Part shown: positions 11,488 through 30,930 of the stretch, piece by piece | How positions within the stretch are numbered: the stretch's first letter is position 1 | How the letters are laid out: each line of letters starts with the position of its first letter | Assembly: GCF_016429285.1 (NCBI RefSeq) | Contig: NZ_JAELUI010000030.1 | Location: 1 to 46,257, forward strand | Source of the DNA: Ralstonia sp. ASV6 | GTDB lineage: Bacteria; Pseudomonadota; Gammaproteobacteria; Burkholderiales; Burkholderiaceae | Length of the DNA: 46,257 nt | Direction: 5' to 3' | Notes under the pieces: generated by a model | The model's input: only the letters and a program-made list of their open reading frames with translations | Databases searched by the model: none | What the model was told of the DNA's origin: nothing | Program-made: the position numbers and the translations under genes

Positions 11488-11898
11488 TTACCCGTTCAGG
11501 GCCGCATCCTTGACCTTCTTCAGGGCGCGGACTTTCACGCGCACCGATGCCGGCTTCGCTTCGAACCACTGCTCCAAACCAGTAAAGGGGTTCTTGCCAA
11601 AGCGGCGCTTGGTTGCCGGAACCTTCACGGACGTCACCTTGAACAGGCCCGGCAGCGTGAACTCGCCGGCGCCCTTCTTGTGCAGTGCGCCTGTGATGGT
11701 GTTTTCCAGATGCAGCAGAACCGCCTTCACCGCCTTGGCGTCAACCTGTGCCTGTTCGGCCAGATGGGTCACCAGGCTCGATTTGGTGAACGTGTTCTTC
11801 AACGGTTTGACCGATGCCGTGGTGGCGGCAGGCTTCTTTGCCGGCGCGGCCTTCTTCGGTGCTGCTTTCTTTGCTGCTGTTTTAGCTTTGGTTGCCAT
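11488..11898 (-). CDS. HU/IHF-family DNA-binding protein with histone H1-like N-terminal tail
   Basis: The product has 136 residues from ATG 11898. Residues 1-30 are an Ala/Lys/Pro tail (ATKAKTAAKKAAPKKAAPAK, continuing) like eukaryotic H1 tails. Residues 35-130 are a divergent HU fold: TKSSLVTHLAEQ helix, LENTITGALHKKGAGEFTLPG beta-arm entry, KRRFGKNPFTG at the arm tip, VRVKVRALKKVKDA C-terminal helix. Such tailed HU proteins are found in Burkholderiales and probably compact the nucleoid; the tail should bind DNA without specificity. It is monocistronic with a strong terminator. Confidence 0.92.
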   Translation of the reverse strand: MATKAKTAAKKAAPKKAAPAKKPAATTASVKPLKNTFTKSSLVTHLAEQAQVDAKAVKAVLLHLENTITGALHKKGAGEFTLPGLFKVTSVKVPATKRRFGKNPFTGLEQWFEAKPASVRVKVRALKKVKDAALNG

Positions 11899-12203
11899 AG
11901 GAGTATTCAGAAGTAGGTGAATGGGCCAGCAAGGTTTTAGCGTATCGCACAGCGCGATACGCCGCAAGAAAGGATAGCAAAACTCGCACAGATCGAATGT
12001 GGAAATCACGGGTGATGACTGCAGCCGGCTTGCTCGCGAGGCCATCCACCAAGGGGTTTTTGATCCGCTGGGCAGGTAAGACCATCGCCCACACTTAAGC
12101 CGAGACCGAACCGTTCCTACTGAAGAAACGCCCCTGTTCGATCTGCGATCCCCGGCATTGAGGCACAGGCGGTGCGGGGATTCAGGTGCAAAACTGAATC
12201 CGC
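11899..12203. other. Intergenic region, 305 bases, with HU leader hairpin
   Basis: This region holds the promoter and leader of the HU-like gene (read leftward). GCGTATCG-cacagcg-CGATACGC at 11940-11962 is a perfect 8-base inverted repeat about 40 bases upstream of the HU start codon. It could be an operator or a leader hairpin. No gene is apparent in the rest. Confidence 0.45.
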
Positions 12204-12998
12204 TCACCGCTGCCACGTGGCCGGCCGCTTCTCCAGAAACGCGTCAATCCCTTCGCCGGCATCCTCTTCCATCATGTTGCGCGCCATGACATCGCCGGCG
12301 TAGGCATAGGCGTCGCTCAGTGCCATCTGCCGCTGCCGATAGAACATCGCCTTGCCATAGCGGATGGCGGCAGGGCTCTTTGACAGGATGTCGGCCACCT
12401 TGCGCGCGATGGCCTCGTCAAGCGCAGCGTCAGGCACGGCCTCGTTGATGAGGCCCCAGTCGGCAGCCGTGGCCGCGTCGATGAAGCGGCCCGTTACCAG
12501 CATGTCGAATGCGCGCTTGGCCGAGACGTTGCGCGACAACGCTACGGCAGGCGTTGAGCAGAACAGGCCAACATTGATGCCTGATACTGCAAACTGTGCC
12601 GCGTCGGACGCAATCGCCAGGTCACAACTGGCAACGAGCTGGCAGCCCGCCGCAGTGGCAATGCCATGCACCCGCGCGATGACCGGCACCGGCAGTGCCT
12701 GGATGGCCTGCATTACCACGCTGCAGCGCGCAAACAGCGCCTGGTAGTGGGCGAGCTGCGGTGTGCCGCGCATTTCGCGCAAATCGTGTCCGGCGCAAAA
12801 CGCCTTGCCTGCGGCGGCGAGCACCACGCAACGTACGCCGTTGTCTGTCGCCACGTCGTCAAGGGCGCGCTGCAAAGCATCCAGCATGGCTTCAGACAGT
12901 GCGTTGAATTGCAGCGGGCGGTTCAGGGTGAGGGTGACGACGCCTGCGTGCGCTTCCTGCAGCACCAGCTCATCCGTTGTTGTGGAGTGGGAATCCAT
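12204..12998 (-). CDS. Enoyl-CoA hydratase/isomerase family protein
   Basis: The 264-residue crotonase-fold protein starts at ATG 12998; a longer frame running back through the TetR gene is an artefact. The oxyanion-hole segments are AGKAFCAGHDLREM (about residues 62-75) and IATAAGCQLVASCDLAIAS (about 109-127). At the second catalytic position CGG-E is replaced by a Gln/Leu context (GCQLVASCD), as in several enoyl-CoA hydratases of the EchA type. The C-terminal helix is present. It is predicted to act on acyl-CoA in fatty-acid or aromatic breakdown. The TetR stop is 10 bases upstream, so the two form an operon. Confidence 0.9.
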   Translation of the reverse strand: MDSHSTTTDELVLQEAHAGVVTLTLNRPLQFNALSEAMLDALQRALDDVATDNGVRCVVLAAAGKAFCAGHDLREMRGTPQLAHYQALFARCSVVMQAIQALPVPVIARVHGIATAAGCQLVASCDLAIASDAAQFAVSGINVGLFCSTPAVALSRNVSAKRAFDMLVTGRFIDAATAADWGLINEAVPDAALDEAIARKVADILSKSPAAIRYGKAMFYRQRQMALSDAYAYAGDVMARNMMEEDAGEGIDAFLEKRPATWQR

Positions 12999-14716: not shown

Positions 14717-15241
14717 ATGACTTCCTCCACCCAAAAGCAGCTCTACATCGGCGAAGGCTTTGAAGGCCCCGGCGTCAATCTCGCGCACATCAACGTGCTG
14801 GTTGGCCCGCGCAACGGCCCTGCCGGCCAAGCGTTTTCCACCGCACTGGCAACCCCGTCGGCTGGCCATGCACCGTTCGTCATCATTGCGCAGCCGGGCG
14901 TGCCGACCAAGCCGCTCACGCTGTACGTGAACAAGGCGCCGATCGAGAGCGACTTCCATGGCAACGCGACATGGGGTGCCTCGCAGGCAGGCATCGCCAA
15001 GGCTGTTGCCGAAGCGCTGGAAAACGGCACGCTGCCGCCGGAAGCGGAGAACGACTGGGTGGTCGTGTCGGCCAACTGGGTGAACCCCAAGACTGACGAC
15101 CTCGACGCCGTGTTCGAGAACAACTACAAGGCCTGCCGCAACGCGATCATCGCCGCCATGGAAGGCCTGCCGCGCAAGGAAGCTGTGTTTGCCGCCGCGC
15201 GTGAAGTCTCCAATCCGTTCTACACCCCGAAGAAGGGCTGA
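14717..15241 (+). CDS. Formaldehyde-activating enzyme (Fae) homologue
   Basis: The product has 174 residues, the normal Fae length. It reads YIGEGFEGPGVNLAHINVLV, then GPRNGPAGQAFSTAL. His in LAHIN matches the proposed catalytic His of Methylorubrum Fae (VAHID, compared from memory), while the next Asp is Asn here. Later blocks PTKPLTLYVNKAPI, ASQAGIAKAVAEALENGTLP and FENNYKACRNAIIAAMEG also fit. True Fae joins formaldehyde to tetrahydromethanopterin. No pterin-pathway gene is nearby, so another substrate is likely. ATG 14717 is chosen by family length; an in-frame ATG at 14681 is possible, and neither has a clear ribosome site. First gene of the operon. Confidence 0.88.
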   Translation: MTSSTQKQLYIGEGFEGPGVNLAHINVLVGPRNGPAGQAFSTALATPSAGHAPFVIIAQPGVPTKPLTLYVNKAPIESDFHGNATWGASQAGIAKAVAEALENGTLPPEAENDWVVVSANWVNPKTDDLDAVFENNYKACRNAIIAAMEGLPRKEAVFAAAREVSNPFYTPKKG

Positions 15242-15252
15242 GGAGACCCAAG

Positions 15253-16275
15253 ATGGAATACGTCCGCCTGGGCCAATCCGGCCTGAAGGTATCGCGCCTG
15301 TGCCTGGGCACGATGAACATGGGCACGCCGCAGTGGAAGCCGTGGATTTTTGATGAGGCGCAAAGCGAGCCGATCGTGCGTCACGCGCTGGAAGCCGGTG
15401 TCAACTTCATCGACCTGGCCGATTTCTACTCGACCGGTGTTGGCGAAGAGGTTGTCGGCCGCATCCTGAAGCGCCTTGCGCGCCGTGAAGAGCTGGTCGT
15501 GACCACCAAGGTTGGCTACGACATGGGCAACTACCCCAATGCGGGTGGCCATTCGCGCAAGCACATCCTCGATGGCATTGATGCGTCGCTCAAGCGGCTC
15601 GACATGGACTACGTCGATGTCTACATGCTGCATTTCTTCGACGTGAACACGCCTGTTGAGGAAACCATGCGCGCGATGCACGACGTTGTCGAGGCCGGCA
15701 AGGCGCGTTACCTCGGTGTGTCGACCATGTACACGTGGCAGTTCGCCAAGATCATGCAAGTGTGCGAGCGCAACGGCTGGCACAAGCCGATCAACATGCA
15801 GCTCCAGCTCAACCTCGCCTACCGCGAAGAAGAGCGCGAGATGGTGCCGTACTGCATCGACCAGGGCGTTGGTGTGTCGGTGTTCAGCCCGTTGGCACGC
15901 GGTCTGCTGACTTGCGAGCCGAAATCCACCCGCAACCAGACCGATTTCTTTACCGCGCAGATGTATGGCGATCCGGCATCGCTGGCGATTGCGGAATCGG
16001 TGGCAAGAGTGGCCAAGCGTCGCGGTGTGCCGCCCGCGCAGATTGCGCAGGCATGGGTGCTCAGTCGCCCGGGGATTGCCAGCATGCTGGTCGGCGCGGA
16101 TTCGGTTGCGCAGTTCGACAGCGCACTCGGCGCGCTCGAAACCAAGCTGACCGAAGACGAGTTGTACGAGTTGGACCGCAACTACACACCATGCGACCTG
16201 ATCAACGACTACACGGCCGGCAAGCGCTGCGCGCGTGAGGCGCGTCCGTCGCAAGGCGTGTTTGCGACAGAGTAA
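15253..16275 (+). CDS. Aldo/keto reductase
   Basis: The product has 340 residues, a cytosolic NAD(P)H-dependent TIM-barrel reductase. The full catalytic tetrad is visible: Asp54 and Tyr59 in NFIDLADFY, Lys86 in VVTTKVGYD and His127 in VYMLHFFD. The C-terminal cofactor-binding part (SMLVGADSVAQFDSALGAL) is typical of the YajO/voltage-channel-beta-like branch. It follows the fae-like stop by 11 bases with AGGAGA as ribosome site, so the two are co-transcribed. Expected role: reversible reduction or oxidation of a sugar or small aldehyde in the same pathway. Confidence 0.94.
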   Translation: MEYVRLGQSGLKVSRLCLGTMNMGTPQWKPWIFDEAQSEPIVRHALEAGVNFIDLADFYSTGVGEEVVGRILKRLARREELVVTTKVGYDMGNYPNAGGHSRKHILDGIDASLKRLDMDYVDVYMLHFFDVNTPVEETMRAMHDVVEAGKARYLGVSTMYTWQFAKIMQVCERNGWHKPINMQLQLNLAYREEEREMVPYCIDQGVGVSVFSPLARGLLTCEPKSTRNQTDFFTAQMYGDPASLAIAESVARVAKRRGVPPAQIAQAWVLSRPGIASMLVGADSVAQFDSALGALETKLTEDELYELDRNYTPCDLINDYTAGKRCAREARPSQGVFATE

Positions 16276-16289
16276 AGGAGCACGACACC

Positions 16290-17738
16290 ATGAGCGAATT
16301 TCTCAAGACCGGCCACTATATTGGTGGCGAGTGGTACGAGCCGCAGGGCGGCGCAGCCACCTACGCGGTGCTGAACCCTGCAACGGGCGAGGCCATTGCA
16401 CAGGTTGCAAAGGGTGGCGCTGCCGAAACCCAGCAGGCCATTGATGCCGCCGAGCGCGCGCTGCCCGCCTGGCGCGCGCTCACCGCCAAGGAGCGCGGTG
16501 CACGCATCAAGCGTTGGGGCGAACTGATGCTCGAGAACCGCGATGCGCTGGCTGAGCTGATGTCGCGCGAGCAAGGCAAGCCGCTGGCTGAAGCCAAGGG
16601 CGAAGTGGCGTATGCCGCGAGCTTCCTGGAATGGTTTGCCGAAGAAGCCAAGCGCATGTACGGCGACGTGATTCCGAGCCCGAAGCCGAACGCGCAGATT
16701 GTCGTCACCCGTGAGCCGATTGGCGTGGTGGCGGCCATCACGCCGTGGAACTTCCCGCTGGCGATGATCACGCGCAAGGCGGGCCCCGCGCTGGCAGCCG
16801 GCTGCACGATGGTGCTCAAGCCGTCGGAAGAGACGCCGCTGTCGGCATTCGCGCTGGCCGTGTTGGCCGAGCGTGCAGATGTGCCGGCCGGGGTTTTCAA
16901 TGTCGTGTCGGGCGATGCGGTGGCCATTGGTGCGGTGCTTACCGGGTCCGAGGTCGTGCGCAAGCTGTCGTTCACAGGCTCGACGCGGGTGGGCAAGCTG
17001 CTTGCCAAGCAGTCAGCCGACACGCTGAAGAAGCTGTCGCTGGAGCTGGGCGGCAACGCACCGTTCATCGTGTTTGACGATGCCGATCTCGATGCTGCGG
17101 TTGAAGGCGCCATGGCTTCCAAGTTCCGCAACACCGGACAGACTTGCGTGTGTGTGAACCGCTTCCTGGTGCAAGACGGCGTGTATGACGCGTTCACGCA
17201 GAAGCTGGCGGCGGCGGTCAGGAAGCTGCGTGTGGGCAATGCGCTCACGGGCGATGTCGATCAGGGGCCATTGATCAACTCGGCAGCACTCGCCAAGGTG
17301 GAGGTGCACGTTGCCGATGCAACAGCCAAGGGTGCCACGGCAGTTACGGGTGGTAAGCGTCACGCGCTCGGCGGCACGTTCTACGAGCCGACCGTGCTGA
17401 CCGGCATGACGCCCGATATGCTGATCGCGGAAGAGGAGACCTTCGGCCCGGTCGCCGCGTGCTTCCGCTTCCAGACCGAGGAAGAAGCGATTGCCGTTGC
17501 CAACGACACCCCGTTTGGCCTGTCCGCGTACTTCTATACGCGTGACCTCGGTCGCGCATGGCGTGTCTCGGGCGCGCTGGAAAGCGGCATGGTTGGCGTC
17601 AACGACGGCATTATCTCCACCGAGGTCGCCCCCTTTGGCGGCGTGAAGCAATCCGGCCTCGGCCGTGAAGGCTCGAAGTACGGCATCGACGAGTACGTCG
17701 AGCTCAAGTACACGCTGATGGCCCGTCTCGGCCGTTAA
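16290..17738 (+). CDS. NAD(P)-dependent aldehyde dehydrogenase, succinate-semialdehyde dehydrogenase-like
   Basis: The 482-residue protein has the length and sequence style of GabD. The cofactor domain carries ITPWNFPLAMITRK and FTGSTRVGKLL. The general base is Glu252 (LELGGNAP) and the nucleophile Cys286 (NTGQTCVCVNRF), with a second Cys two residues on, as in bacterial SSADH enzymes. It oxidises an aldehyde to its acid in the cytosol. Given the operon, the true substrate may be a sugar-derived semialdehyde rather than succinate semialdehyde. An AAAGGAG site precedes the ATG; the gap to the reductase gene is 14 bases. Confidence 0.93.
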   Translation: MSEFLKTGHYIGGEWYEPQGGAATYAVLNPATGEAIAQVAKGGAAETQQAIDAAERALPAWRALTAKERGARIKRWGELMLENRDALAELMSREQGKPLAEAKGEVAYAASFLEWFAEEAKRMYGDVIPSPKPNAQIVVTREPIGVVAAITPWNFPLAMITRKAGPALAAGCTMVLKPSEETPLSAFALAVLAERADVPAGVFNVVSGDAVAIGAVLTGSEVVRKLSFTGSTRVGKLLAKQSADTLKKLSLELGGNAPFIVFDDADLDAAVEGAMASKFRNTGQTCVCVNRFLVQDGVYDAFTQKLAAAVRKLRVGNALTGDVDQGPLINSAALAKVEVHVADATAKGATAVTGGKRHALGGTFYEPTVLTGMTPDMLIAEEETFGPVAACFRFQTEEEAIAVANDTPFGLSAYFYTRDLGRAWRVSGALESGMVGVNDGIISTEVAPFGGVKQSGLGREGSKYGIDEYVELKYTLMARLGR

Positions 17739-17756
17739 GTCGCTTCCCCAGCGATT

Positions 17757-17787
17757 GCGCCGCGCACCTTGTCTGGCTGCGCGGCGC
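17757..17787 (+). other. Intercistronic hairpin between the dehydrogenase and MFS genes
   Basis: GCGCCGCGCA and TGCGCGGCGC form a perfect 10-base stem around an 11-base loop in the 111-base gap. It is GC-rich but followed only by a weak pyrimidine run. It may be a partial terminator or an mRNA-stabilising stem that lowers transporter expression. Confidence 0.45.
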
Positions 17788-17849
17788 CCGTTTCCCCTTG
17801 GCGGGGCGCCCCACGCCCACGCATCACCCATAAGAATTCAGGAGGAGCC

Positions 17850-19223
17850 ATGAGCCAGTCGAATGCTCAGTATGTGGCGGACGGCGCGATGCCGCAGTCA
17901 TCTGCGGTTGAACGCCCGCAAGGTCGGGTCAACCTCGACGATGTGCCGCTGAACCGCTTCCATATCAAGATTGCTGGACTGACGTTCGGCGCGCACCTGA
18001 CCGAAGGCTACGTGCTGGGTACTGTTGGTTACGCGCTCAGCGCCATGGGCACGCAGATGCCGCTTGATCCGTTCTGGATGGGGCTGCTTGGCAGCTCCGC
18101 GCTGATCGGCATCTTCCTGGGTAGCCTCCTGTTTGGCCGCCTGTCCGACATCATGGGCCGTCAGAAGATTTTCCTGACGAGCTTCCTGATCATCACCCTC
18201 GCTTCGGCAGCGCAGTTCTTCGTGACGTCACCGATGGAGCTGTTGCTGCTGCGTATCCTGATTGGCATCGGGATGGGCGGTGACTTCTCGGTTGGCCATG
18301 CGATCCTGGCCGAATTCTCGCCGCGCAAGCATCGTGGGGTTTTGCTGGGTTCGTTCAGTGTGATCTGGACCGTGGGCTACGTCATCGCCAACGTGCTCGG
18401 CATGGTCTACGCGCACGCCACGCCAGATTCCTGGCGCTGGTTGCTGGCCTCGGCCGCGTTGCCTGCTGCAATCATCCTGCTCCTGCGCATGGGCACGCCG
18501 GAATCGCCGCGCTGGCTTGCCGGCAAGGGCCGCGTAAAAGAAGCCCGTGACATCGTCACGAAGCTCTTTGGCCCGAATGTGGTGCTGGACGGCGTGGGTG
18601 AACGTCATGAGAACGCGGGTTTCGGGCGCCTGTTCCAGCCGGATCTGATTCGCCGCACGATCTTCAATTGCGTGTTCTTCATGTGCCTGGTGATCCCGTA
18701 CTTCGCGATCTACACGTTCTTGCCGACGATCCTCTGGACGATCGGTCTGTCACAAGGCTTTGGCACGGATCTGCTGCTCAACGGTTTTCTTGTGTTGGGT
18801 GCTTTGATCGGCATCTGGCTCACGATCGTGCTGTCGCGGCGCGGTTTCCTGATCGGTTCGTTTGCCGTGACCTGTGTGTCACTGCTGGCGCTGGCGCTGC
18901 TGCCGTCCACCGCGTCGGTTGCCATGATGATCGCGTTCGCCATCTTCACGCTCACCATGTCGGCATTTAGCAACCTCGTTGGCGTGTTTCCGCCTGAGTG
19001 CTTTCCGACGGAAGTGCGGGCAAGCGGCGTTGGCCTTTCGGTTGCGTGCAGCCGGCTGGGTTCGGCTGTCGGCACGTTCCTGCTGCCGGTGGGCATCACG
19101 ACGCTCGGCTTTCAGGCGACGATGTTTGCGCTTGCCGGTGTGTTGCTCGTTGGAATGATTGTGTCGATTGCGTGGGCACCCGAGACGAAGCACCTGACGC
19201 TCAACCAGGCGGCGGGCCACTGA
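17850..19223 (+). CDS. MFS transporter, sugar-porter-like
   Basis: The product has 457 residues and 12 predicted membrane spans in the inner membrane. ATG 17850 follows a near-perfect AGGAGGAG ribosome site, so an upstream in-frame extension is rejected. Motif A is GRLSDIMGRQKIF. The sugar-porter signature PESPRWL follows span 6. Another marker is VGVFPPECFPTEVRASGVGL near spans 10-11 (PTEVRA-G is common in metabolite:proton symporters). It is probably the importer for the substrate of the fae/AKR/ALDH genes upstream. The next gene (LysR) converges, with 4 bases between the stops. Confidence 0.92.
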   Translation: MSQSNAQYVADGAMPQSSAVERPQGRVNLDDVPLNRFHIKIAGLTFGAHLTEGYVLGTVGYALSAMGTQMPLDPFWMGLLGSSALIGIFLGSLLFGRLSDIMGRQKIFLTSFLIITLASAAQFFVTSPMELLLLRILIGIGMGGDFSVGHAILAEFSPRKHRGVLLGSFSVIWTVGYVIANVLGMVYAHATPDSWRWLLASAALPAAIILLLRMGTPESPRWLAGKGRVKEARDIVTKLFGPNVVLDGVGERHENAGFGRLFQPDLIRRTIFNCVFFMCLVIPYFAIYTFLPTILWTIGLSQGFGTDLLLNGFLVLGALIGIWLTIVLSRRGFLIGSFAVTCVSLLALALLPSTASVAMMIAFAIFTLTMSAFSNLVGVFPPECFPTEVRASGVGLSVACSRLGSAVGTFLLPVGITTLGFQATMFALAGVLLVGMIVSIAWAPETKHLTLNQAAGH

Positions 19224-20465: not shown

Positions 20466-21407
20466 GTGAGACGCAAGATGCCGGCGCTGAATGCGCTCAA
20501 AGCCTTTGAAATGGCCGGTCGCACCGGCAGCTTTACGCGTGCGGCGGAACTGCTCAACGTGACGCAAAGCGCGGTGAGCCGCCAGGTCCGGCAGCTCGAA
20601 AGCCAGCTCGGTGAATCCCTGCTCGAGCGCCGCCATCATCAGCTGGAGCTGACGGCGGCCGGCCGCGTGCTGCTGCACGCGCTGCAGCAGTCGTTCGACA
20701 AGATCGAGTTGACGGTGCGCAGCCTGCAGGAGAAAACGCACCTGAACCGGCTGCGCGTGAATGTGCCGCCGACCTTTGCTGTGCGCTGGTTCATGCCGCG
20801 CCTGGGGCGGCTATGCGAGGCCTATCCCGAATCCGAGCTCAGTCTTACCACGCGCATCCACGACAGCCTGGGAGAGTCACGCGTGCTCGATTGCGCCATC
20901 CGCTTTGGTGATGGCGAGTGGGATGGCTTTGACAACGTGTTGCTGATGCAGGAGCAACACATTGCCGTCTGCTCACCGGCGCTGTATGCGAGGCTGCGGC
21001 AGGGCAGTGAGCCCATCGACCTGAACCGCTTCACGCTGCTGCATGTGCTCGCGACCGACGATCAGCGCTACCTGACCTGGCAGCACTGGTTGAAGGAGGC
21101 CGGCATCACCGGCGTCGACACCAGCGGCGGCTACGAATTCGACCTGCTTGACCACGTGATCCGCGCCGCCATCGATGGGCTTGGCATTGCCATTGCCGAT
21201 CGCCACATGGTCGCCCGCGAGCTTGCGGCAGGCCAGTTGATGCAGGTGCTCAACGTGCATGTGGATGGTCATCAATCGTATTGGTTTGTGACGCGCCCGG
21301 AGCAGACCAACCTGCCGCACATCGTGCAGTTTCGCGAATGGCTGCAGCAGGAAGTGTGGTTGGCCAAGCGCCATCTCGAGCCCTCGTCACCGCCGTCGCG
21401 ACGCTGA
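20466..21407 (+). CDS. LysR-family regulator (GcvA-like), candidate controller of the aldA-like operon
   Basis: The product has 313 residues if GTG 20466 is used; ATG 20478 (PALNALKAFEMAGRTGSFTR) is four codons on and equally possible. The HTH is at 1-65 (TQSAVSRQVRQLESQLGESL), the effector domain opens RLRVNVPPTFAVRWFMPRLG, and a YEFDLLDHVIRAAIDGLGIA block follows. It aligns along its length with the divergent LysR, so the pair looks like an old duplication. It points towards and precedes the aldA-like gene by 277 bases, and probably controls that operon. Confidence 0.92.
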   Translation: MRRKMPALNALKAFEMAGRTGSFTRAAELLNVTQSAVSRQVRQLESQLGESLLERRHHQLELTAAGRVLLHALQQSFDKIELTVRSLQEKTHLNRLRVNVPPTFAVRWFMPRLGRLCEAYPESELSLTTRIHDSLGESRVLDCAIRFGDGEWDGFDNVLLMQEQHIAVCSPALYARLRQGSEPIDLNRFTLLHVLATDDQRYLTWQHWLKEAGITGVDTSGGYEFDLLDHVIRAAIDGLGIAIADRHMVARELAAGQLMQVLNVHVDGHQSYWFVTRPEQTNLPHIVQFREWLQQEVWLAKRHLEPSSPPSRR

Positions 21408-21684: not shown

Positions 21685-23109
21685 ATGCGTACCGAACGCA
21701 ACTACGTCAACGGTCAGTTCGTCGCTTCCGAAAGCGACACGTTCATCGTTGTTAAGAACCCCGCCACCGAGGCGCCGTTTGCCCGTGTGCACGCTGTTAC
21801 GGCCAACGAAGCCATCGCTGCAGTCGACGTGGCCGCGGCCGCGCAGAAGGCATGGCGCAAGCTGCCCAGCACCGAGCGCGCGGCCTACCTGCACAAGCTC
21901 GCCGATGCATTGACCGCACGCGCTCCGGAAATCGGAGCAGCGCTCGCGCAGGAATCCGGCAAGAGCGTCGAAGACGCCTCAAACGAAGCCGTCTACGCGG
22001 CCCAGATCACGCGCTATCACGCAGAATGGGCACGCCGCATCGAAGGCGAAGTCATCCCCAGCGACACGCCTGATGAAAACCTGTTCTTGCAGCGCGAGTC
22101 TATTGGCGTTGTCGCCTGTCTGATCCCATTCAACTACCCCGTCTACACGCTGCTGCGCAAGGTCGCGCCGGCGCTGATCACCGGCAACACGGTCGTCGTG
22201 CGCCCGAGCAACAACACGCCGGTGTCGGCCTTCGAGATTGCGAAGGCTGTGGAAGACGCAGGTTTCCCCCCGGGCGTGATCAACATCCTGACGATGGACC
22301 ACGCCACTGCCGAGGCGCTGTGCACGCATCCGGCCGTCGGCATGATCACGCTCACGGGCAGCGTGAACGCCGGCCGCAAGGTGCTCGACTACTGCAAGGC
22401 GAACATTGCACGGCCGTCGCTCGAGCTGGGCGGCAAGACGCCCGCGATCATCGAGCCTGATGCCGATCTTGACCGCGCCGCCGCCGATCTGGTCGCGGCA
22501 AAGACGGCGCACTGCGGTCAGCGCTGCACTGCCATTGAGCGCATTTACGTGCATGACAGCGTGCACGATCGCTTTGTCGCGCTGCTCAAGGAAAAGATGG
22601 CGGCTGTGCAGATTGGCGACCGCGCAGTCGATCCGTCACGCATGGGGCCGCTCGTCAGCGCCTCGGCGCGCATGCAGATTCACGGCATGGTTGAACGCGC
22701 GATTGCCGCCGGTGCAACGCTCGAAACGGGCGGTGTCATTCCGGAAGGCGCCGGCTTCTTCTATCCGGCCACACTGCTGACCGGCGTCCGCCAGGACATG
22801 GAGATCGTGCAGGAGGAAACATTCGGCCCGATCCTGCCGGTGTTGCGCTACTCGACCATTGACGAAGCCATCACCTTGGCGAACGACCACCAGTTCGGCC
22901 TGGCATCGGTGCTCTACACCGAGAACTATCGCAACGCGATGAAGGTTGCGAACGCGATCGAATCGGGTGAGCTGTACGTCAACCGCACGCCGGCAGACCC
23001 GTACCAGGGCTACCACGCGGGTTGGAAACGCTCGGGCCTGGGCGGCGACGACGGCAAGCACGGGATGCTCGAGTTCACGCAAACGCGCCTCGTCGTCATG
23101 AAGTACTGA
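21685..23109 (+). CDS. NAD-dependent aldehyde dehydrogenase, AldA-like (lactaldehyde/glycolaldehyde type)
   Basis: The 474-residue protein resembles E. coli AldA in length and sequence (YVNGQFVASESDTFIVVKNP near the start). The cofactor region is CLIPFNYPVYTLLRKVAPAL, the general base Glu247 (LELGGKTP) and the nucleophile Cys281 (AHCGQRCTAIE). The C-terminal ends YHAGWKRSGLGGDDGKHGML, as in AldA. It is expected to oxidise short hydroxyaldehydes such as glycolaldehyde or lactaldehyde to the acid. It is first in an operon-like run with an MFS, a dehydratase-like enolase, a GMC oxidoreductase and a porin. Confidence 0.93.
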   Translation: MRTERNYVNGQFVASESDTFIVVKNPATEAPFARVHAVTANEAIAAVDVAAAAQKAWRKLPSTERAAYLHKLADALTARAPEIGAALAQESGKSVEDASNEAVYAAQITRYHAEWARRIEGEVIPSDTPDENLFLQRESIGVVACLIPFNYPVYTLLRKVAPALITGNTVVVRPSNNTPVSAFEIAKAVEDAGFPPGVINILTMDHATAEALCTHPAVGMITLTGSVNAGRKVLDYCKANIARPSLELGGKTPAIIEPDADLDRAAADLVAAKTAHCGQRCTAIERIYVHDSVHDRFVALLKEKMAAVQIGDRAVDPSRMGPLVSASARMQIHGMVERAIAAGATLETGGVIPEGAGFFYPATLLTGVRQDMEIVQEETFGPILPVLRYSTIDEAITLANDHQFGLASVLYTENYRNAMKVANAIESGELYVNRTPADPYQGYHAGWKRSGLGGDDGKHGMLEFTQTRLVVMKY

Positions 23110-23222
23110 CGGGGCGGGCGTCCTGTTTCCGGCGCGCGCCGCAGCACGCGCGCCGTTCCCCAAATCACGACAAAACAAGATCTGCAGACCTCCACATCGG
23201 AAGTCTGATGGAGGACGACACC

Positions 23223-24539
23223 ATGCCGACTCAATCGTCGACAACCGCCCCATCGTTGGGGGCCTCAACTGATACACGCACATCAAACAGTTCACGCACG
23301 CAGCGCTATCTGCAACTGCTGCTGCTGGTGATTGCCGCAGGCGCGATCTATCCGATGTTGTATCTCCGGCAGGTGTACCAGCCGACGATGCTCGCGTTCT
23401 TCCACATCGACGACGCGCAACTCGGTTATCTGTATTCCGCGCTCGGTACCATCTTCTTCATCAGCTACCTGCCCAGCGGCTGGCTGGCCGACCGCATGTC
23501 GCCGCGCTGGCTGATCTGCTTTTCGTTGCTTGCCACCGGCGCGCTCGGGTTGCTCTACGCAACGGGCCCGTCGTTCGACACGCTGATGATCATCTTCTGC
23601 GGCTGGGGCCTGACGACCGGGCTCACCTTCTGGGCTGCCGTGATGAAGCGCGTGAACCTCATCGCCAGCCAGGACGAGCAGGGTCGCTTCTTCGGCCTGC
23701 TGGATGGCGGCCGCGGCCTGATCGAAGCGTTGCTGGCGACCATCGCCATCTCGCTGTTCGCCTACGTTACGCAAACACGTAACGGCACCGAAGCCGAAGG
23801 CTTCCGGCTGGTCGTGCACCTGTACGCGTTCTTCTGTATCGCGCTGGGCGTGTTGCTCGCGCTGGTGAAGGAGCCTGTGCGCGCAGGCCAGGTGAAGGCG
23901 GCCAAGCACCGCGAAGGCAGCGTGCTGACTGACCTGAAAACACTTGCGGCGATTCCCGAGCTGTGGCTCGTTGCCGCCATCGTGTTCTGCGGCTATCAGG
24001 TGTTCTGGGCCACCTACAGTTTCTCGGCGTATCTGCACGAAGGCAACTTCGGGTTGAGTGCGACAGCGGCCGGCTTCATCACCACGCTCAAGCTGTGGAT
24101 GCGCCCGATCGGTGGCATCGGTGGTGGCTTCCTGGGTGACCGTCTCTCGAAGGTCTCCGTGCTGTTCTGGGCACTGGTGTTCGCGGCGCTTTCGCTCGTC
24201 GGGTTGATCCTCGCGCCGCCGCACAGCCCACAGGCGATGCTCGTCGTGCTGGTGCTGTTCATCGGCATCCTGACTTATGCGATCCGTGGCCTGTATTGGT
24301 CGCTGCTGGACGACTGCAAGGTGCCCACGCACTGCGCGGGGCTTGCGATCGGCCTGATCTCGGTGCTCGGCTATTCGCCGGACATCTTCCTGCCGCTCAT
24401 CAACGGCTACGTGACGCAGCACCACCCTGGTGCATCCGGCTACCAACTCTACTTTGGCTACATCACGGCCATCGCGCTCTGTGGCGCAGGCGCCGCCGCG
24501 TTCCTCAAATACCGCCTCAACCGCAAGGAGTCCGTATGA
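23223..24539 (+). CDS. MFS transporter
   Basis: The product has 438 residues and 12 predicted membrane spans. ATG 23223 has GGAGG seven bases upstream and is preferred over ATG 23208. The hydrophilic first 30 residues (Ser/Thr-rich) are cytoplasmic. Features include GWLADRMSPRWLICFSLLAT (motif A) and YAIRGLYWSLLDDCKVPTHC near span 10. It resembles organophosphate/anion:proton symporter-like MFS proteins more than drug pumps. Its stop overlaps the next start (ATGA), so the two are translationally coupled and the transporter should import the dehydratase substrate. Confidence 0.92.
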   Translation: MPTQSSTTAPSLGASTDTRTSNSSRTQRYLQLLLLVIAAGAIYPMLYLRQVYQPTMLAFFHIDDAQLGYLYSALGTIFFISYLPSGWLADRMSPRWLICFSLLATGALGLLYATGPSFDTLMIIFCGWGLTTGLTFWAAVMKRVNLIASQDEQGRFFGLLDGGRGLIEALLATIAISLFAYVTQTRNGTEAEGFRLVVHLYAFFCIALGVLLALVKEPVRAGQVKAAKHREGSVLTDLKTLAAIPELWLVAAIVFCGYQVFWATYSFSAYLHEGNFGLSATAAGFITTLKLWMRPIGGIGGGFLGDRLSKVSVLFWALVFAALSLVGLILAPPHSPQAMLVVLVLFIGILTYAIRGLYWSLLDDCKVPTHCAGLAIGLISVLGYSPDIFLPLINGYVTQHHPGASGYQLYFGYITAIALCGAGAAAFLKYRLNRKESV

Positions 24540-25753
24540 AGATCGTTTCGCTTGAAACCCACATCGTTGCTGTGCCGCAGCCGCATGTCGGCGGGATGTA
24601 TTGGATCTTCGTCAAACTGAAGACCGATGACGGTATCGAAGGCGCTGGTGAAATCTATTCGGCGACGTTCGGCCCGAAGGCGATGGTGCCGATCATTGAA
24701 GACGTGTTCGAGCGTCATCTGCTCAACCACGACCCGCACCACGTCGAGCGCCTGTTCCGCCAGTGCTATTCGAGCGGCTTCACGCAGCGCCCGGATCTGA
24801 CGATGATGGGTGTCGTCAGTGGTCTGGAAATGGCCTGCTGGGACATTGTCGGCAAGGCGGCCAACAAGCCGGTGTATGAACTGCTCGGCGGCAAGATTCA
24901 CGATCGCCTGCGTTCGTACACGTACCTGTACCCGAAGAACGCGCAAGGCGAATACGACTACGACGATCCGGACCTCGCTGCAGAGTGCGCGGCCGAGAAC
25001 GTGAAGCTTGGCTTCACGGCAGTCAAGTTCGATCCGGCTGGCCCGTACACGGCGTACTCAGGTCACCAACTGTCGATGGAAGTGCTCGACCGCTGCGAGC
25101 TGTTCTGCCGCCGCGTACGTGAGGCGGTTGGCAGCAAGGCTGATCTGCTGTTCGGCACGCACGGCCAGATGGTGCCGTCGTCGGCTATCCGCCTGGCCAA
25201 GCGCCTGGAGAAGTACGACCCGCTGTGGTTTGAAGAGCCGGTGCCGCCGGGCCAGGAAGAGGCCATGGCCACCATCGCCCAGCACACATCGATTCCTATT
25301 GCCACCGGCGAGCGCCTGACCACCAAGTACGAGTTCCACAAGCTGCTGCAAGCGGGCGCTGCCTCCATCATTCAATTGAACGTGGCGCGTGTTGGCGGCC
25401 TGCTGGAAGCCAAGAAGATCGCCACGCTGGCCGAGGTGCACTACGCGCAGATCGCACCGCACCTATATAACGGCCCGGTGGGCGCCGCCGCGAGTATCCA
25501 ACTTGCGGCCTGCACGCCCAACTTCCTGATCCAGGAAAGCATCATGACGTGGGGCGGCTTCCACGCCGAAGTCGTCAAGACGCCGATCCGCTGGGAAGAC
25601 GGCTACATCATCCCGTCGAGCGAGCCGGGCCTGGGCATCGAACTGAACATGGACGTTGTGCGTGCGAACACACCGTACACGGGCCAGCGGCTGCACCTGC
25701 AGATGGGCGAGAAGCCCGTCGACGTGAAGGACTTGGCGCCTGCCAAGGGCTGA
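24536..25753 (+). CDS. Enolase-superfamily dehydratase (mandelate racemase/muconate-lactonizing family)
   Basis: The product has 405 residues, starting inside the MFS stop with AAGGAG upstream. An N-terminal capping domain (1-125) is followed by a TIM barrel. Visible residues are Lys164 in AVKFD, Glu234 in WFEEP, Glu259 in ATGERL and His309 in APHL. In galactonate-dehydratase-like members these supply metal ligands and the acid-base pair. The usual first metal ligand Asp (DFHG in E. coli DgoD, from memory) is replaced by Gly207 in FGTHGQ. It probably dehydrates a sugar acid to a 2-keto-3-deoxy acid; the acid cannot be named. No matching aldolase is adjacent. Confidence 0.88.
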   Translation: MKIVSLETHIVAVPQPHVGGMYWIFVKLKTDDGIEGAGEIYSATFGPKAMVPIIEDVFERHLLNHDPHHVERLFRQCYSSGFTQRPDLTMMGVVSGLEMACWDIVGKAANKPVYELLGGKIHDRLRSYTYLYPKNAQGEYDYDDPDLAAECAAENVKLGFTAVKFDPAGPYTAYSGHQLSMEVLDRCELFCRRVREAVGSKADLLFGTHGQMVPSSAIRLAKRLEKYDPLWFEEPVPPGQEEAMATIAQHTSIPIATGERLTTKYEFHKLLQAGAASIIQLNVARVGGLLEAKKIATLAEVHYAQIAPHLYNGPVGAAASIQLAACTPNFLIQESIMTWGGFHAEVVKTPIRWEDGYIIPSSEPGLGIELNMDVVRANTPYTGQRLHLQMGEKPVDVKDLAPAKG

Positions 25754-25769: not shown

Positions 25770-27431
25770 ATGACTTACGACTACATCATCGTCGGCGCGG
25801 GTTCAGCGGGCTGCATTCTGGCAAACCGTCTGAGTGAATCGGGCAAGCACTCGGTGCTGCTGCTTGAAGCAGGCGAGCGCGACAGCTCCTTCTGGTTCAA
25901 GGTGCCCGTTGGTTTTACCAAGACGTACTACAACCGCCGCTATAACTGGATGTACTACAGCGAGCCCGAAGCGCAGCTCGCCAACCGCCAACTGTATTGC
26001 CCGCGCGGCAAGGTCGTGGGCGGCTCGGGTTCGATCAACGCCATGGTCTACGTGCGCGGCCAGCGCAGCGACTATGACGATTGGGCCGCCGCCGGCAATC
26101 CAGGCTGGGGGTACGACGACGTGCTGCCGTACTTCCGCAAGCTGGAGACGCACGCGGCCGCGGCAACCGACCCGCAGCATCACGGAGCCACGGGGCCGAT
26201 CCATATCACGTCGATGAAGAACGACGTGCACCCGATCGTGCACGAGTTCCTGAAGGGTTGCGAGCAGTTGAAGCTGCCGCGCACCAATGATTTCAACGGC
26301 GCGAATTTTGAAGGCGCGGGCATCTACGATCTGAACACGAAGAACGGCGAGCGTTGCAGCAGCAGCTTTGCCTATCTGCGCCCGGCGGAAAGCCGGCCGA
26401 ACCTGACGGTCCGCTCCAGCACCCTGGTGCGTCGCGTGCAGTTTGAGGGCAAGCGCGCTGTTGGCGTAGTGGTGGCTGGCCAACATGGCGATGAGACGAT
26501 CGCCGCGACGTGCGAAGTGATCATGGCAGCCGGCGCGGTGGATACGCCCAAGCTGTTGCAACTCTCGGGCGTGGGCGATCCTACGCTGCTGGGCCGCCAT
26601 GGCGTGCCGCTCGTGCACGCGCTGCCTGCTGTGGGCCGCAACCTGCAGGACCACCTATGCGTGAGCTTCTACTTCAAGGCCAATCGCCCAACGCTCAATG
26701 ACGAGATGGGCACGCTCTTCGGCAAGATGAAGATCGGCCTGCGCTATCTGCTGAGCAAGCGTGGTCCGCTCGCCATGAGCGTGAACCAGGCGGGCGGTTT
26801 CTTCCGCGGTTCACCGGATGTGCTGGAGCCGAACATCCAGCTCTACTTCAACCCGCTGTCGTACCGGATTCCGAAGAGCGAGCACGCGAACATCGAGCCG
26901 GAGCCATATTCGGGCTTCCTGATCGCGTTCAACCCGTGTCGGCCGACGAGCCGCGGCACGATCGAGATTGTGTCGAATCGCGCGGAAGACGCGGCGAAGA
27001 TCCACATCAACGCGCTGACGACGCAAAAGGATCTGGAAGAAGCTGTGCAGGGCAGCAAGGTGATCCGCTCGCTGATGCATGCACCCGCGTTGAAAGCGAT
27101 GACTGTCGAGGAGATCTCGCCGGGGCCGCAGGTCACGTCGGACGAGGCGCTGCTGCAGTACTTCCGCGAGCAGTCGGGTTCGATCTATCACCTGTGCGGA
27201 TCGTGTGCCATGGGCCCGGATGCCGCCACGTCGGTCGTCGACGCCTCGCTGCGCGTGCACGGGCTGCAAGGCTTGCGGATCGTCGATGCCTCGATCTTCC
27301 CGAACATCACTGCCGGCAACATCAACGCGCCGACGATGATGGTGGCCGAGAAGGGCGCAGGCCTGATTCTGCGCGATGCACAACGCACGGCAACCGCGCC
27401 GGCTGAGGCGCGCGAAGCAGCGGTGGTGTAG
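25770..27431 (+). CDS. GMC-family FAD oxidoreductase (alcohol or choline dehydrogenase-like)
   Basis: The 553-residue flavoprotein starts MTYDYIIVGAGSAGCILANR, the FAD-binding GxGxxG. ATG 25758 is four codons earlier. The first GMC signature is GKVVGGSGSINAMVYVRG, the second GAVDTPKLLQLSGVGD, and the active-site region SIYHLCGSCAMGPD holds the expected catalytic His. The C terminus NINAPTMMVAEKGAGLIL completes the family. It should oxidise a primary or secondary alcohol, perhaps a sugar alcohol, passing electrons to a membrane acceptor or oxygen. It starts 16 bases after the dehydratase stop. Confidence 0.93.
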   Translation: MTYDYIIVGAGSAGCILANRLSESGKHSVLLLEAGERDSSFWFKVPVGFTKTYYNRRYNWMYYSEPEAQLANRQLYCPRGKVVGGSGSINAMVYVRGQRSDYDDWAAAGNPGWGYDDVLPYFRKLETHAAAATDPQHHGATGPIHITSMKNDVHPIVHEFLKGCEQLKLPRTNDFNGANFEGAGIYDLNTKNGERCSSSFAYLRPAESRPNLTVRSSTLVRRVQFEGKRAVGVVVAGQHGDETIAATCEVIMAAGAVDTPKLLQLSGVGDPTLLGRHGVPLVHALPAVGRNLQDHLCVSFYFKANRPTLNDEMGTLFGKMKIGLRYLLSKRGPLAMSVNQAGGFFRGSPDVLEPNIQLYFNPLSYRIPKSEHANIEPEPYSGFLIAFNPCRPTSRGTIEIVSNRAEDAAKIHINALTTQKDLEEAVQGSKVIRSLMHAPALKAMTVEEISPGPQVTSDEALLQYFREQSGSIYHLCGSCAMGPDAATSVVDASLRVHGLQGLRIVDASIFPNITAGNINAPTMMVAEKGAGLILRDAQRTATAPAEAREAAVV

Positions 27432-27598
27432 CTACACGCTGTGTCGCCGTATGGCCGTGCGGCACGCAGGTGTGCCCCACGGCAGTCAACCCCGAGGCGG
27501 CGCTGTTGCCGCCGCCTATCCCTAAAAGAAAGGCAGATCGGCGATCCCTGTGCCGCTTGGCACCGGAACAGCATTTGCCAATGTCGTTGGAGACCACA

Positions 27599-28750
27599 AT
27601 GAAGAAGCATCTCATCACCCTGGCCGCTTCCGCTTGCTGCGCGAGCCCCGTTTTCGCGCAAAGCAGTGTCACGCTGTACGGCATCCTGGACGAAGGCATC
27701 AACTACACGAACAACACGGGGGGCAACCACCTCTTCGAGTTGGCCAGCGGTTACGCCTACGGCAGCCGTTGGGGCATCAAAGGCAGCGAGGATCTGGGCG
27801 GTGGCAACAAGGCCATCTTCCAACTGGAAAACGGCTTCAATATCAGCAACGGTGCCGCGGCACAAGGCGGGCGGATGTTTGGCCGCCAGGCCTACGTGGG
27901 CGTGAGCGGCAACGAGTGGGGGACGGTCACGCTGGGCCGTCAGTACGACTCGGTGGTCAACTACGTGGCGCCGCTCACAACAAACGGTAACTGGAGCGGC
28001 TGGCTGCTGGCGCACCCGTATGACAACGACAACACCGACAACTCGTTTCGCCTGAGCCAGTCGATCAAGTACGCCAGCCCGGATTTCAACGGCTTCCAGT
28101 TTGGCGGCGCGTATGCCTTCAGCAACAGCACCAACTTTGTGGCCAACCGTGCCTATAGCGTGGGCGCGAAGTACAACAACGGTGGCCTTGCCCTGGGCGC
28201 CGCATACATGCAGGTTGACCAGCCCGGCATGACCGACGTCGGTGCACTCGCCACCAATGATGCGAGCTTCATGGCACAGCGCATGCGCGTGTTTGGCGCG
28301 GGCGTGAACTACACACTGGGGCCCACCACCGTGGGGTTCGTCTACACGAACTCGAACTACCAAAACCCCACCGGCAACGGCTATCTCGGCACGCCCGGTG
28401 ACATCATCGCCCCGGGTGCAACGCTGGGCGCGATCAAGTATCAGAACTTCGAGGTGAACGCCAAGTACCAGTTCACGCCAGCGTTCTTCGTGGGTGGTCA
28501 GTACGTGTTGACGCTGGGCAAGTACGACGCCTCGACCGCCAGCCCGCAACAGAAGATCCATTCGGTCGGCTTGATGGCCGATTACAACTTCTCCAAGCGA
28601 ACAGACATCTACCTGCAGACCGTGTACCAGCACGTGGCAGGCGGCAAGACGGGGTCGGTGCTTGACCAGGCGTACATCGTGGGCACGGCGGGGCCCTCGT
28701 CCACCACAAGCCAGACGGTCGTGCGCGTCGCGCTGCGCCACCTGTTCTAA
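27599..28750 (+). CDS. Outer-membrane porin (Burkholderia-type, trimeric)
   Basis: The product has 383 residues from ATG 27599, with TTGGAGA upstream. The first 20 residues are a signal peptide ending PVFA before QSSVTLYG, the near-universal mature N terminus of beta-proteobacterial porins (SSVTLYGILDEGI). FELASGYAYGSRWGIKGSED and GRQAYVGVSGNEWGTVTLGR follow. The last residue is Phe (VRVALRHLF), the BAM insertion signal. A 16-strand barrel for small solutes is expected. It lies at the end of the aldA-like operon, 167 bases after the GMC gene, and likely admits that pathway's substrate. Confidence 0.95.
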   Translation: MKKHLITLAASACCASPVFAQSSVTLYGILDEGINYTNNTGGNHLFELASGYAYGSRWGIKGSEDLGGGNKAIFQLENGFNISNGAAAQGGRMFGRQAYVGVSGNEWGTVTLGRQYDSVVNYVAPLTTNGNWSGWLLAHPYDNDNTDNSFRLSQSIKYASPDFNGFQFGGAYAFSNSTNFVANRAYSVGAKYNNGGLALGAAYMQVDQPGMTDVGALATNDASFMAQRMRVFGAGVNYTLGPTTVGFVYTNSNYQNPTGNGYLGTPGDIIAPGATLGAIKYQNFEVNAKYQFTPAFFVGGQYVLTLGKYDASTASPQQKIHSVGLMADYNFSKRTDIYLQTVYQHVAGGKTGSVLDQAYIVGTAGPSSTTSQTVVRVALRHLF

Positions 28751-30126: not shown

Positions 30127-30930
30127 ATGACGGAGTCGCTCTCCCTGTACGCTGCCGAGACATGGATCACCACCGTCAACGGCCGTCTCTATGCCAAGCG
30201 TTGGGGTGGCACGGCGGATGGCGCCGTGTTGCCGCCCATCGTGCTGCTGCATGACTCGCTCGGCTGCGTTGAGCTATGGCGCGATTTTCCGCAGCGCTTG
30301 GCGCAGGCGACCGGGCGTGCGGTGATTGCCTACGATCGCCTAGGTTTCGGCCAGTCGGATCCGCACCGGGGCCCGATCGGTGCGGATTTCATCCGCCAGG
30401 AAGCGCATACCGGCTTTTCTGCCCTGATCGACCAGCTTGGCGTGGAGCGTTTCATTGCCTTTGGCCACAGTGTGGGTGGCGGCATGGCGGTGTCGATTGC
30501 TGCCGCGTATCCGGACCGTTGCGTTGGGCTGATTACCGAGTCTGCGCAAGCATTTGTCGAAGCGCAGACGCGCGAGGGCATCCGCACGGCCCAGGCCCAG
30601 TTTGCCGAGCCCGGCCAGATGTCACGCCTGGAGCGGTATCACGGTGACAAGGCACATTGGGTCTTGGATGCCTGGGTCAGCACGTGGTTGTCGCCCGCGT
30701 TTGCCGACTGGTGCCTGGATGAAGAACTGCTGGGTGTCCGCTGCCCGGTGCTCGCCATGCACGGCACGGAAGACGAGTATGGCTCGACCGCGCAGCCCGA
30801 GCGCATCGTGACCTTGGCCGGCGCGCCGGCTCGGCTGGCGTTGCTGCAGCGCTGCGGTCACGTGCCGCATCGGGAGCAGGAAGCCACGGTGCTGGATGCG
30901 GTGAGGGTGTTTGTGACGGCGTCACACTGA
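30127..30930 (+). CDS. Alpha/beta-hydrolase
   Basis: The product has 267 residues. The nucleophile elbow is FGHSVGGGMAV with Ser115. The acid is probably Asp in MHGTEDEYG and the base His in CGHVPHRE near the C terminus. The lid region (about 140-200) is helical and substrate-specific. LHDSLGCVELWRDFP supplies the oxyanion loop. It is a cytosolic esterase or related hydrolase, with no substrate predictable. It follows ilvE by 13 bases and is probably co-transcribed. Confidence 0.9.
   Translation: MTESLSLYAAETWITTVNGRLYAKRWGGTADGAVLPPIVLLHDSLGCVELWRDFPQRLAQATGRAVIAYDRLGFGQSDPHRGPIGADFIRQEAHTGFSALIDQLGVERFIAFGHSVGGGMAVSIAAAYPDRCVGLITESAQAFVEAQTREGIRTAQAQFAEPGQMSRLERYHGDKAHWVLDAWVSTWLSPAFADWCLDEELLGVRCPVLAMHGTEDEYGSTAQPERIVTLAGAPARLALLQRCGHVPHREQEATVLDAVRVFVTASH

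Follow-up and report, generated by a model that had tools for sequence, protein, structure and literature searches.

A Fae-like protein of Ralstonia sp. ASV6, placed by sequence in a separate class, and its co-inheritance with an enolase-superfamily gene module

Fae is known for joining formaldehyde to tetrahydromethanopterin (H4MPT) in methylotrophs; what, then, does a Fae-like protein do at the head of an operon in which no pterin gene is visible? The question is raised by a stretch of 46,257 nucleotides from Ralstonia sp. ASV6 (contig NZ_JAELUI010000030.1), the whole of which is called the window here. The original prediction, drawn from the letters alone, had described a tight operon headed by the Fae-like gene and holding an aldo/keto reductase (AKR) with its full tetrad, a dehydrogenase like succinate semialdehyde dehydrogenase (SSADH) and a sugar-porter-like importer. 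We found that the class of this Fae-like protein is co-inherited with a second gene module (module II), a link that is new here. We hold the chances about evenly balanced that this Fae-family class serves, independently of H4MPT, a catabolic pathway of two co-inherited modules acting on a hydroxylated betaine-like substrate. The operon (module I), with its aldehyde dehydrogenase (ALDH) and its major facilitator superfamily (MFS) importer, and the regulator beyond it are as follows.

14717..15241, + strand: Fae-like protein of the 'AHIN' class, 174 aa; PF08714 161.6 bits; Asn26 in 117/117 matched loci
15253..16275, + strand: AKR, 340 aa, full tetrad; PF00248 227 bits
16290..17738, + strand: SSADH-like ALDH, 482 aa; TIGR01780 706 bits (cut-off 646), NF008415 731 (cut-off 828)
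17850..19223, + strand: MFS importer, 457 aa from ATG 17850; PF00083 177 bits
19228..20322, - strand: LysR1 regulator, GcvA-like; LysR Pfam domains at residues 72-350

The gaps within the operon measure 11 bases between the Fae-like and AKR genes, 14 between the AKR and ALDH genes and 111 between the ALDH and MFS genes, so the tight operon headed by the Fae-like gene was borne out by the first two. The three partner genes likewise proved to be what they had been taken for: the AKR has an intact tetrad (Asp54/Tyr59/Lys86/His127), the ALDH lies above the TIGR01780 cut-off, and the importer is an MFS protein matching PF00083. The MFS gene starts better at ATG 17850, with AGGAGG just before it, than at the listed TTG 17769, and the true start of LysR1 is probably downstream of the listed one. 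A scan of promoters and terminators gave 0 promoter-like and 3 terminator-like sites, not above shuffled sequence.

As judged by profile searches, the Fae-like protein belongs to the Fae family: it scored 161.6 bits against PF08714 (cut-off 27) and passed the NCBIfam equivalog TIGR03126 (136.1 versus a cut-off of 118.05). The solved Fae of M. extorquens (1y5y; E 9.7e-21) carries the motif AHID, and the Fae-like protein carries AHIN. The family was followed through 117 matched loci, namely the window, 100 loci of its family Burkholderiaceae (some genomes being fetched twice) and 16 others. His24, Asn26, Phe54, Lys73, Trp86 and Gln90 were invariant in 117/117, which agrees with the earlier observation that the key His is kept and that Asn stands in place of Asp. 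A functional Fae is marked by the catalytic His with an adjacent Asp; here the His is present and the Asp is replaced by Asn. The ratio of non-synonymous to synonymous differences per site (pN/pS) of the gene was 0.08-0.20 in the comparisons with five closer relatives and 0.42-0.48 in those with two remoter ones, where silent sites are already heavily changed. Hence the gene is under purifying selection, and a chance open reading frame (ORF) or a decaying relic was ruled out by pN/pS together with the conservation across loci.

The separateness of this class was evaluated with 155 unique Fae-family sequences, of which 101 are of the window's class (at least 40% identity) and 54 fall below 40%. 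The latter comprise 47 sequences picked as canonical by their AHID or AHVD motif and seven of a third class, which lack the His motif AHI(D/N). At the site of Asn26 these 54 sequences have Asp in 47 cases, Glu in 7 and Asn in none; the canonical Asp follows from picking by motif, and the absence of Asn below 40% identity does not. In a FastTree tree the window's class formed a clade with a support of 0.983; support was 0.998 for the third class and only 0.554 for the canonical set. Thirty-two columns were near-fixed to differing residues in the window's class (at least 97%) and in the 47 canonical sequences (at least 95%), and the swaps from canonical to window's class include Asp to Asn26, Leu to Phe54, Phe to Trp86, Phe to Trp121, Gln to His81 and His to Asn166. 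The canonical Thr73 becomes mostly Gln, otherwise Asp, Pro or Glu; His24, Lys73 and Gln90 are unchanged. In Fae itself the ligand contacts are, as we take it, His22, Asp24, Leu53, Lys71, Thr73 and Gln88 (M. extorquens numbering). On these sequence grounds the Fae-like protein is a member of a separate class within the Fae family. Two further sightings of the family should be recorded: by eye, a divergent Fae-like protein with the motif AHPN sits beside urease-looking genes (L222:8980-9507), and the chain named Avd in PDB 8ub7 contains a Fae domain at residues 126-286.

A complete H4MPT pathway elsewhere in the genome, together with formaldehyde sensitivity of the mutant, had been named beforehand as the result that could overturn the reading. 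The host genome amounts to 5.9 Mb in 718 contigs, and neither of the two marker families Mch (PF02289) and Ftr (PF01913, the FhcD family) had a match anywhere in it, Mtd and the other Fhc subunits not being searched. The earlier remark that no Mch, Mtd or Fhc gene is visible therefore holds genome-wide for Mch and FhcD-type Ftr. The Fae-like protein is also the sole match of PF08714 in the genome. A survey of 398 genomes of the family found a Fae match in 145 and Mch in 76. The 145 were sorted by best E-value into a canonical range (1e-66 or below) and a window-class range (1e-45 to 1e-55): Mch was present in 73/73 genomes with Fae in the canonical range and in 0/67 with Fae only in the window-class range. 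Sixteen sequences from these 67 genomes (the window's and 15 more) were read and all are of the class, the other 51 being assigned by score. Five of the 145 fell in neither range, two with Mch and three without it, and one genome (G305) has Mch and no Fae match. A normal Fae with its H4MPT genes elsewhere was thus ruled out on the markers Mch and Ftr by the genome search and the family survey, and the protein ought not to be listed as a functional Fae. Automatic annotation will nevertheless call it a formaldehyde-activating enzyme, because the TIGR03126 cut-off is passed, and annotated plasmid records do give members of the class this name. In this way genomes without H4MPT are credited with a one-carbon (C1) enzyme that probably is none.

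The gene order proved to be widely kept. Among 80 loci from named organisms (the best 80 of 221 confirmed matches) the AKR gene lies directly downstream of the Fae-like gene in 80, AKR and ALDH genes are both present in 78, and the MFS gene joins them in 70. The corresponding figures were 20, 19 and 12 for 20 further loci of the window's family, and 11, 11 and 9 for the 16 other loci. The five exceptions among these 16 are a locus with the order AKR-Fae-ALDH (L162), a Streptomyces locus in which a beta-hydroxyacid dehydrogenase (beta-HAD) replaces the AKR (L163), one with a transporter gene between Fae and AKR (L220), one with the AKR before Fae, where no adjoining SSADH-like ALDH was found (L221), and one in which no cassette was seen (L222). 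The AKR tetrad is kept in 113-115 of 115 loci that passed the filter (117 examined), and Arg162, Arg280, Cys286 and Glu252 of the ALDH in 112 of 112 (117 examined). Homologues of LysR1 are close to the cassette in many loci, not all.

The nearest named relative of the Fae-like protein (97%) comes from Ralstonia sp. A12, where its gene has the same neighbours, the upstream TetR and DJ-1 genes among them. In a phylum-wide draw, close members (at least 60%) occurred in 6/398 genomes, four of them in the window's family. Outside this family, full-length matches above 40% identity were counted in 2/249 genomes of the order of G425, and the class was found in 11/148 genomes of the family of G543 and 2/197 of the order of G562, whose own copy sits by glnS- and nag-like genes as judged by eye. 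The cassette recurs in other gammaproteobacteria, in Ensifer and in Streptomyces, and members of the class are plasmid-borne in Ensifer adhaerens (47%) and Streptomyces clavuligerus (47.6%). Among 5,426 E. coli genomes no place covered 80% of the fae-AKR-ALDH stretch of one locus (L166), and the five matches listed were gabD.

Module II follows the operon in the window and consists of the genes for an ALDH, an MFS transporter, an enolase-superfamily enzyme and a GMC oxidoreductase. It is given here with its flanking regulator and porin.

20466..21407, + strand: LysR2 regulator, GcvA-like; beside module II in most loci read
21685..23109, + strand: ALDH, AldA-like; NF007497 527.9 bits (cut-off 500)
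23208..24539, + strand: MFS transporter; PgtP and galactonate transporter models match only weakly; intact ORF in 8/10 loci
24536..25753, + strand: enolase-superfamily enzyme, galactonate-dehydratase-like; NF010624 258 bits (cut-off 311)
25773..27431, + strand: GMC oxidoreductase, choline-dehydrogenase-like; TIGR01810 486 bits (cut-off 732)
27470..28750, + strand: porin-like outer-membrane gene following module II, recognised by eye; homologues adjoin module II in 4/10 loci

Two of these enzymes stay below the equivalogs that they resemble, the enolase below galactonate dehydratase (258 versus 311) and the GMC protein below choline dehydrogenase BetA (486 versus 732). The nearest solved relatives of the GMC protein are 8b7s (9e-113) and 9lq0 (2.5e-112), a chloramphenicol-inactivating oxidoreductase and a choline dehydrogenase. 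Close to module II in the window, a glycerate 2-kinase-like gene occupies 32028-33320 and an alpha/beta hydrolase gene 30127-30930.

With a search threshold of E at or below 1e-120, the module II enolase was found in 65/67 genomes having only the window-class Fae and in 1/80 Fae-less genomes, the first 80 of 100 drawn at random from 253. Many of these 80 are small genomes of other genera. Within the genera shared with the 67 (g1 5, g12 7, g21 3, g25 2 and g10 3 genomes), the enolase was present in 1/20 Fae-less genomes. In nine genomes with both places listed (G013, G020, G051, G218, G249, G301, G311, G339 and G365) the Fae-like gene and the enolase gene do not share a contig or are separated by about 500 kb, with the reservation that those of G365 could be neighbours because both lie near contig ends. 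That the enolase follows the class so closely, these nine unlinked genomes included, speaks for one pathway for both modules. Among the Fae-less genomes searched, the only one with the enolase (G306, locus L241) has its module II fragmented into several short ORFs. Eight of ten module II loci have all four genes, the others being this broken one and the G034 locus, which lacks the MFS gene; the enolase genes of L234 and L238 were placed from the genome-wide enolase search. Members of module II are also found near the cassette in L033, L127-L131, L221 and L223, partly beyond the stretch fetched, and there the MFS gene is lacking in L127-L131 and L221. A second enolase-superfamily gene (ENO2) was matched in all five of L127-L131. 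Through co-inheritance an orphan Fae class is joined to an enolase group of which structures have been solved, and a defined set of genes becomes available for assay.

What the pathway may act on was approached from the ALDH and the transporters. The ALDH is within the SSADH subfamily TIGR01780 and below the cut-off of the GabD equivalog NF008415. Two genes with higher scores, also below that cut-off, lie elsewhere in the genome, and a role of the cassette ALDH as GabD of the gamma-aminobutyrate (GABA) shunt was rejected on their account. The two carboxylate-binding Arg of human SSADH are, we assume, Arg213 and Arg334, with Ser498 as a further contact. Because this Arg pair is conserved in all 112 ALDHs, the substrate is probably a semialdehyde with a carboxylate, and the pair points to a conversion of such a semialdehyde to a dicarboxylate.

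Betaine-type transporters accompany the cassette in three lineages, and none is in the window itself. In G801 a BCCT gene (PF02028, 395 bits) stands between the Fae-like and AKR genes. In S. clavuligerus fae overlaps by 4 bases the OpuAC binding-protein gene that ends an ATP-binding cassette (ABC) operon. In all five loci L127-L131, from the genera g21 and g25 (G040 is of g21), ProV/ProW-like genes are divergent from the Fae-like gene with OpuAC nearby, and the ATPase of L129 passes TIGR01186 (345 versus a cut-off of 327). Two OpuAC matches each were seen in L128 and L131. The BCCT and ProU/OpuAC families carry betaines and similar solutes, and their presence here suggests a nitrogenous substrate. 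GMC, ALDH and a galactonate-dehydratase-like enolase would suit a polyol or glycerol-like part.

Sequence class, gene order, the two absent H4MPT markers, co-inheritance and residue conservation underlie the two-module catabolic pathway that we favour. Its steps would run as follows. The imported compound, probably a hydroxylated betaine or another small organic cation or zwitterion, would have its primary alcohol oxidised to a carboxylate by the GMC protein and ALDH of module II, and the enolase would eliminate a group beta to the new carboxylate. The module I AKR, elsewhere the beta-HAD, would then oxidise a hydroxy-carboxylate to a semialdehyde. On this semialdehyde the Fae-like protein would act, probably as a lyase or hydro-lyase with its His24/Lys73/Gln90 site and no pterin, and the SSADH-like ALDH would perform the last step to the dicarboxylate. 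Step direction, substrate type and the Fae-like reaction are what we infer here. If the betaine reading is true, a small fold that joins formaldehyde to a pterin nitrogen has been adapted to a new reaction of an aldehyde or amine.

A more specific version, which we regard as a long shot, is that the two modules break down the head group of the betaine lipid glyceryl-trimethylhomoserine (DGTS). In this version GMC and ALDH would oxidise the glycerol end to a glycerate ether, from which the enolase would eliminate homoserine betaine and leave pyruvate. The AKR or beta-HAD would turn homoserine betaine into its semialdehyde, and the Fae-like protein would free trimethylamine as a carbon-nitrogen lyase, with Phe54, Trp86 and Trp121 as a putative aromatic site for the trimethylammonium group. 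The SSADH-like enzyme would finally convert fumaric semialdehyde to fumarate. This version gives each of the six enzymes a single step and agrees with the betaine-type transporters. The chemistry of homoserine betaine, of DGTS and of sugar acids underlies the routes proposed here and below.

Several observations weigh against a two-module pathway for a betaine-like substrate. Firstly, rhizobial plasmids (L242-L244 and L247-L252) carry the module II ALDH, enolase and GMC genes with no Fae-like gene in the stretch read; either, accordingly, module II can do its work in the absence of the Fae-like protein, or something else takes over the Fae step there. These rhizobial copies mostly come with LysR2 and some with the MFS gene, the ALDH of L251 is of another branch, and a beta-HAD gene adjoins in L243 and L251. 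After module II in the two Shinella loci (L242 and L250), an SSADH-like ALDH and an omega-aminotransferase follow, which may represent an alternative route or a neighbouring GABA operon. Both modules occur in the Ensifer CTYH record, at a great distance from each other. Secondly, G158 (88% complete) and G307 (100%) have the Fae-like gene without the enolase, and the divergent L222 (43% identity) shows a different neighbourhood with no AKR/ALDH cassette. Thirdly, at least nine genomes hold both the window-class Fae and canonical Fae with Mch (among the matches listed G009, G040, G047, G055, G128, G182, G202, G235 and G299), so the class and H4MPT can share a genome. Fourthly, 834 bases separate fae from the beta-HAD gene in S. 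clavuligerus, with the beta-HAD and SSADH-like genes following. Lastly, most class members have an MFS protein with a glucose transporter as best solved relative (for the window, GlcP 2.6e-27, then OCTN2 1.5e-17), and Ensifer, G1005 and L224 carry a dipeptide/nickel-type ABC system with the cassette. Most loci therefore do not call for a betaine, and the betaine reading is a lean, not proof. For the proposal of a catabolic role on a sugar-derived aldehyde this means that the catabolic setting stands with the conserved operon, while a sugar origin is unproven, given the betaine-type transporters in three lineages. The earlier admission that the pathway is not recognised applies equally to the follow-up, which matched it to no known pathway.

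A plain sugar-acid route is unlikely in our view. Here GMC and ALDH would convert a small polyol or aldose to an aldonate, and dehydration by the enolase would yield a 2-keto-3-deoxy acid (for a C4 aldonate, 4-hydroxy-2-oxobutanoate). The AKR or beta-HAD would oxidise its terminal hydroxyl, the SSADH-like ALDH would lead to oxaloacetate or 2-oxoglutarate, and the Fae-like protein would work on the keto intermediate as a tautomerase, dehydratase or aldolase. The galactonate-dehydratase-like enolase (258 of 311 bits) speaks for it, as do two beta-HADs beside rhizobial module II whose highest scores are to L-threonate dehydrogenase (182 and 173 of 350) and the resemblance of both window MFS proteins to sugar or sugar-acid carriers. 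It accounts poorly for the three lineages in which BCCT or OpuAC-type transporters accompany the cassette. Moreover, none of the conserved module genes was recognised as an aldolase or sugar kinase, the glycerate 2-kinase-like gene at 32028-33320 lying nearby.

That the protein is still a formaldehyde enzyme, trapping formaldehyde from demethylation with tetrahydrofolate, a thiol or another amine instead of H4MPT, seems distinctly unlikely. The TIGR03126 score and the invariance of His24, Lys73 and Gln90 in 117/117 matched loci are in line with it, and betaine-type transporters would suit demethylation. However, Asp is replaced by Asn in every member read, and the carboxylate-binding Arg of the partner ALDH would be superfluous for formaldehyde. 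The conserved neighbours are AKR, ALDH, transporter and LysR genes, no search for demethylase or C1 genes having gone beyond Mch and Ftr. A general operon against stress by methylglyoxal or other reactive aldehydes is very unlikely: enzymes of this kind do occur in the AKR and ALDH families, and in the window a DJ-1-like gene stands shortly before the operon, but the importers are dedicated, the co-inherited enolase module is catabolic, and the DJ-1 gene was matched in only 1/80 loci (the best 80 of 221, flanks up to 8 kb). Vitamin B6 degradation was hinted at by the GMC match to pyridoxine 4-oxidase (4ha6, 4.6e-73) and by pyridoxine 4-dehydrogenase (8te8) as the last of 60 AKR matches listed; it was dropped, as none of the conserved genes was recognised as a ring oxygenase. 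Elsewhere in the window, at 11488-12216, we noticed by eye a HU-like DNA-binding protein with a Lys/Ala/Pro-rich histone-like tail.

Searches of titles and the starts of abstracts returned no description of the class or its operon; they leave the subscription literature mostly uncovered and do not establish absence in print. The closest known system is canonical Fae (5,6,7,8-tetrahydromethanopterin hydro-lyase, M. extorquens 1y5y), which is homologous over the full length, similar in size and shares the His, Lys and Gln of the site. The window's class differs from it by Asn for Asp, a variable Thr73 site, Phe for Leu and Trp for Phe twice, and by Mch in 0/67 genomes holding this class alone. 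The Fae2/Fae3-type paralogues of methylotrophs are likewise Fae relatives without a settled role, and the third class of seven sequences may be equal to them. In the parts of the sources seen, Fae3 is described as a distant homologue of Fae, single mutants of Methyloversatilis universalis in Fae2 or Fae3 grew like the wild type on methanol and methylamine (PMC5023235), and a fae2 mutant of Methylobacterium aquaticum grew more slowly on methanol (PMC7356819). The glutathione-dependent Gfa-type protein of PMC5209427, as far as the portion seen goes, is unrelated to the Fae-like class.

Among the partner enzymes, the cassette ALDH shares with GabD, the succinate semialdehyde dehydrogenase, the TIGR01780 subfamily and both Arg, and misses the GabD equivalog cut-off. 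The module II enolase is very similar over its full length to PDB 4e4u (885.6 bits), which is titled by superfamily only, and to our knowledge no reaction is known for this group. On plasmid pSCL4 of S. clavuligerus the Fae-like, dehydrogenase and SSADH-like genes share one strand as they do in the window; the AKR is replaced by a beta-HAD and the MFS importer by an OpuAC ABC system.

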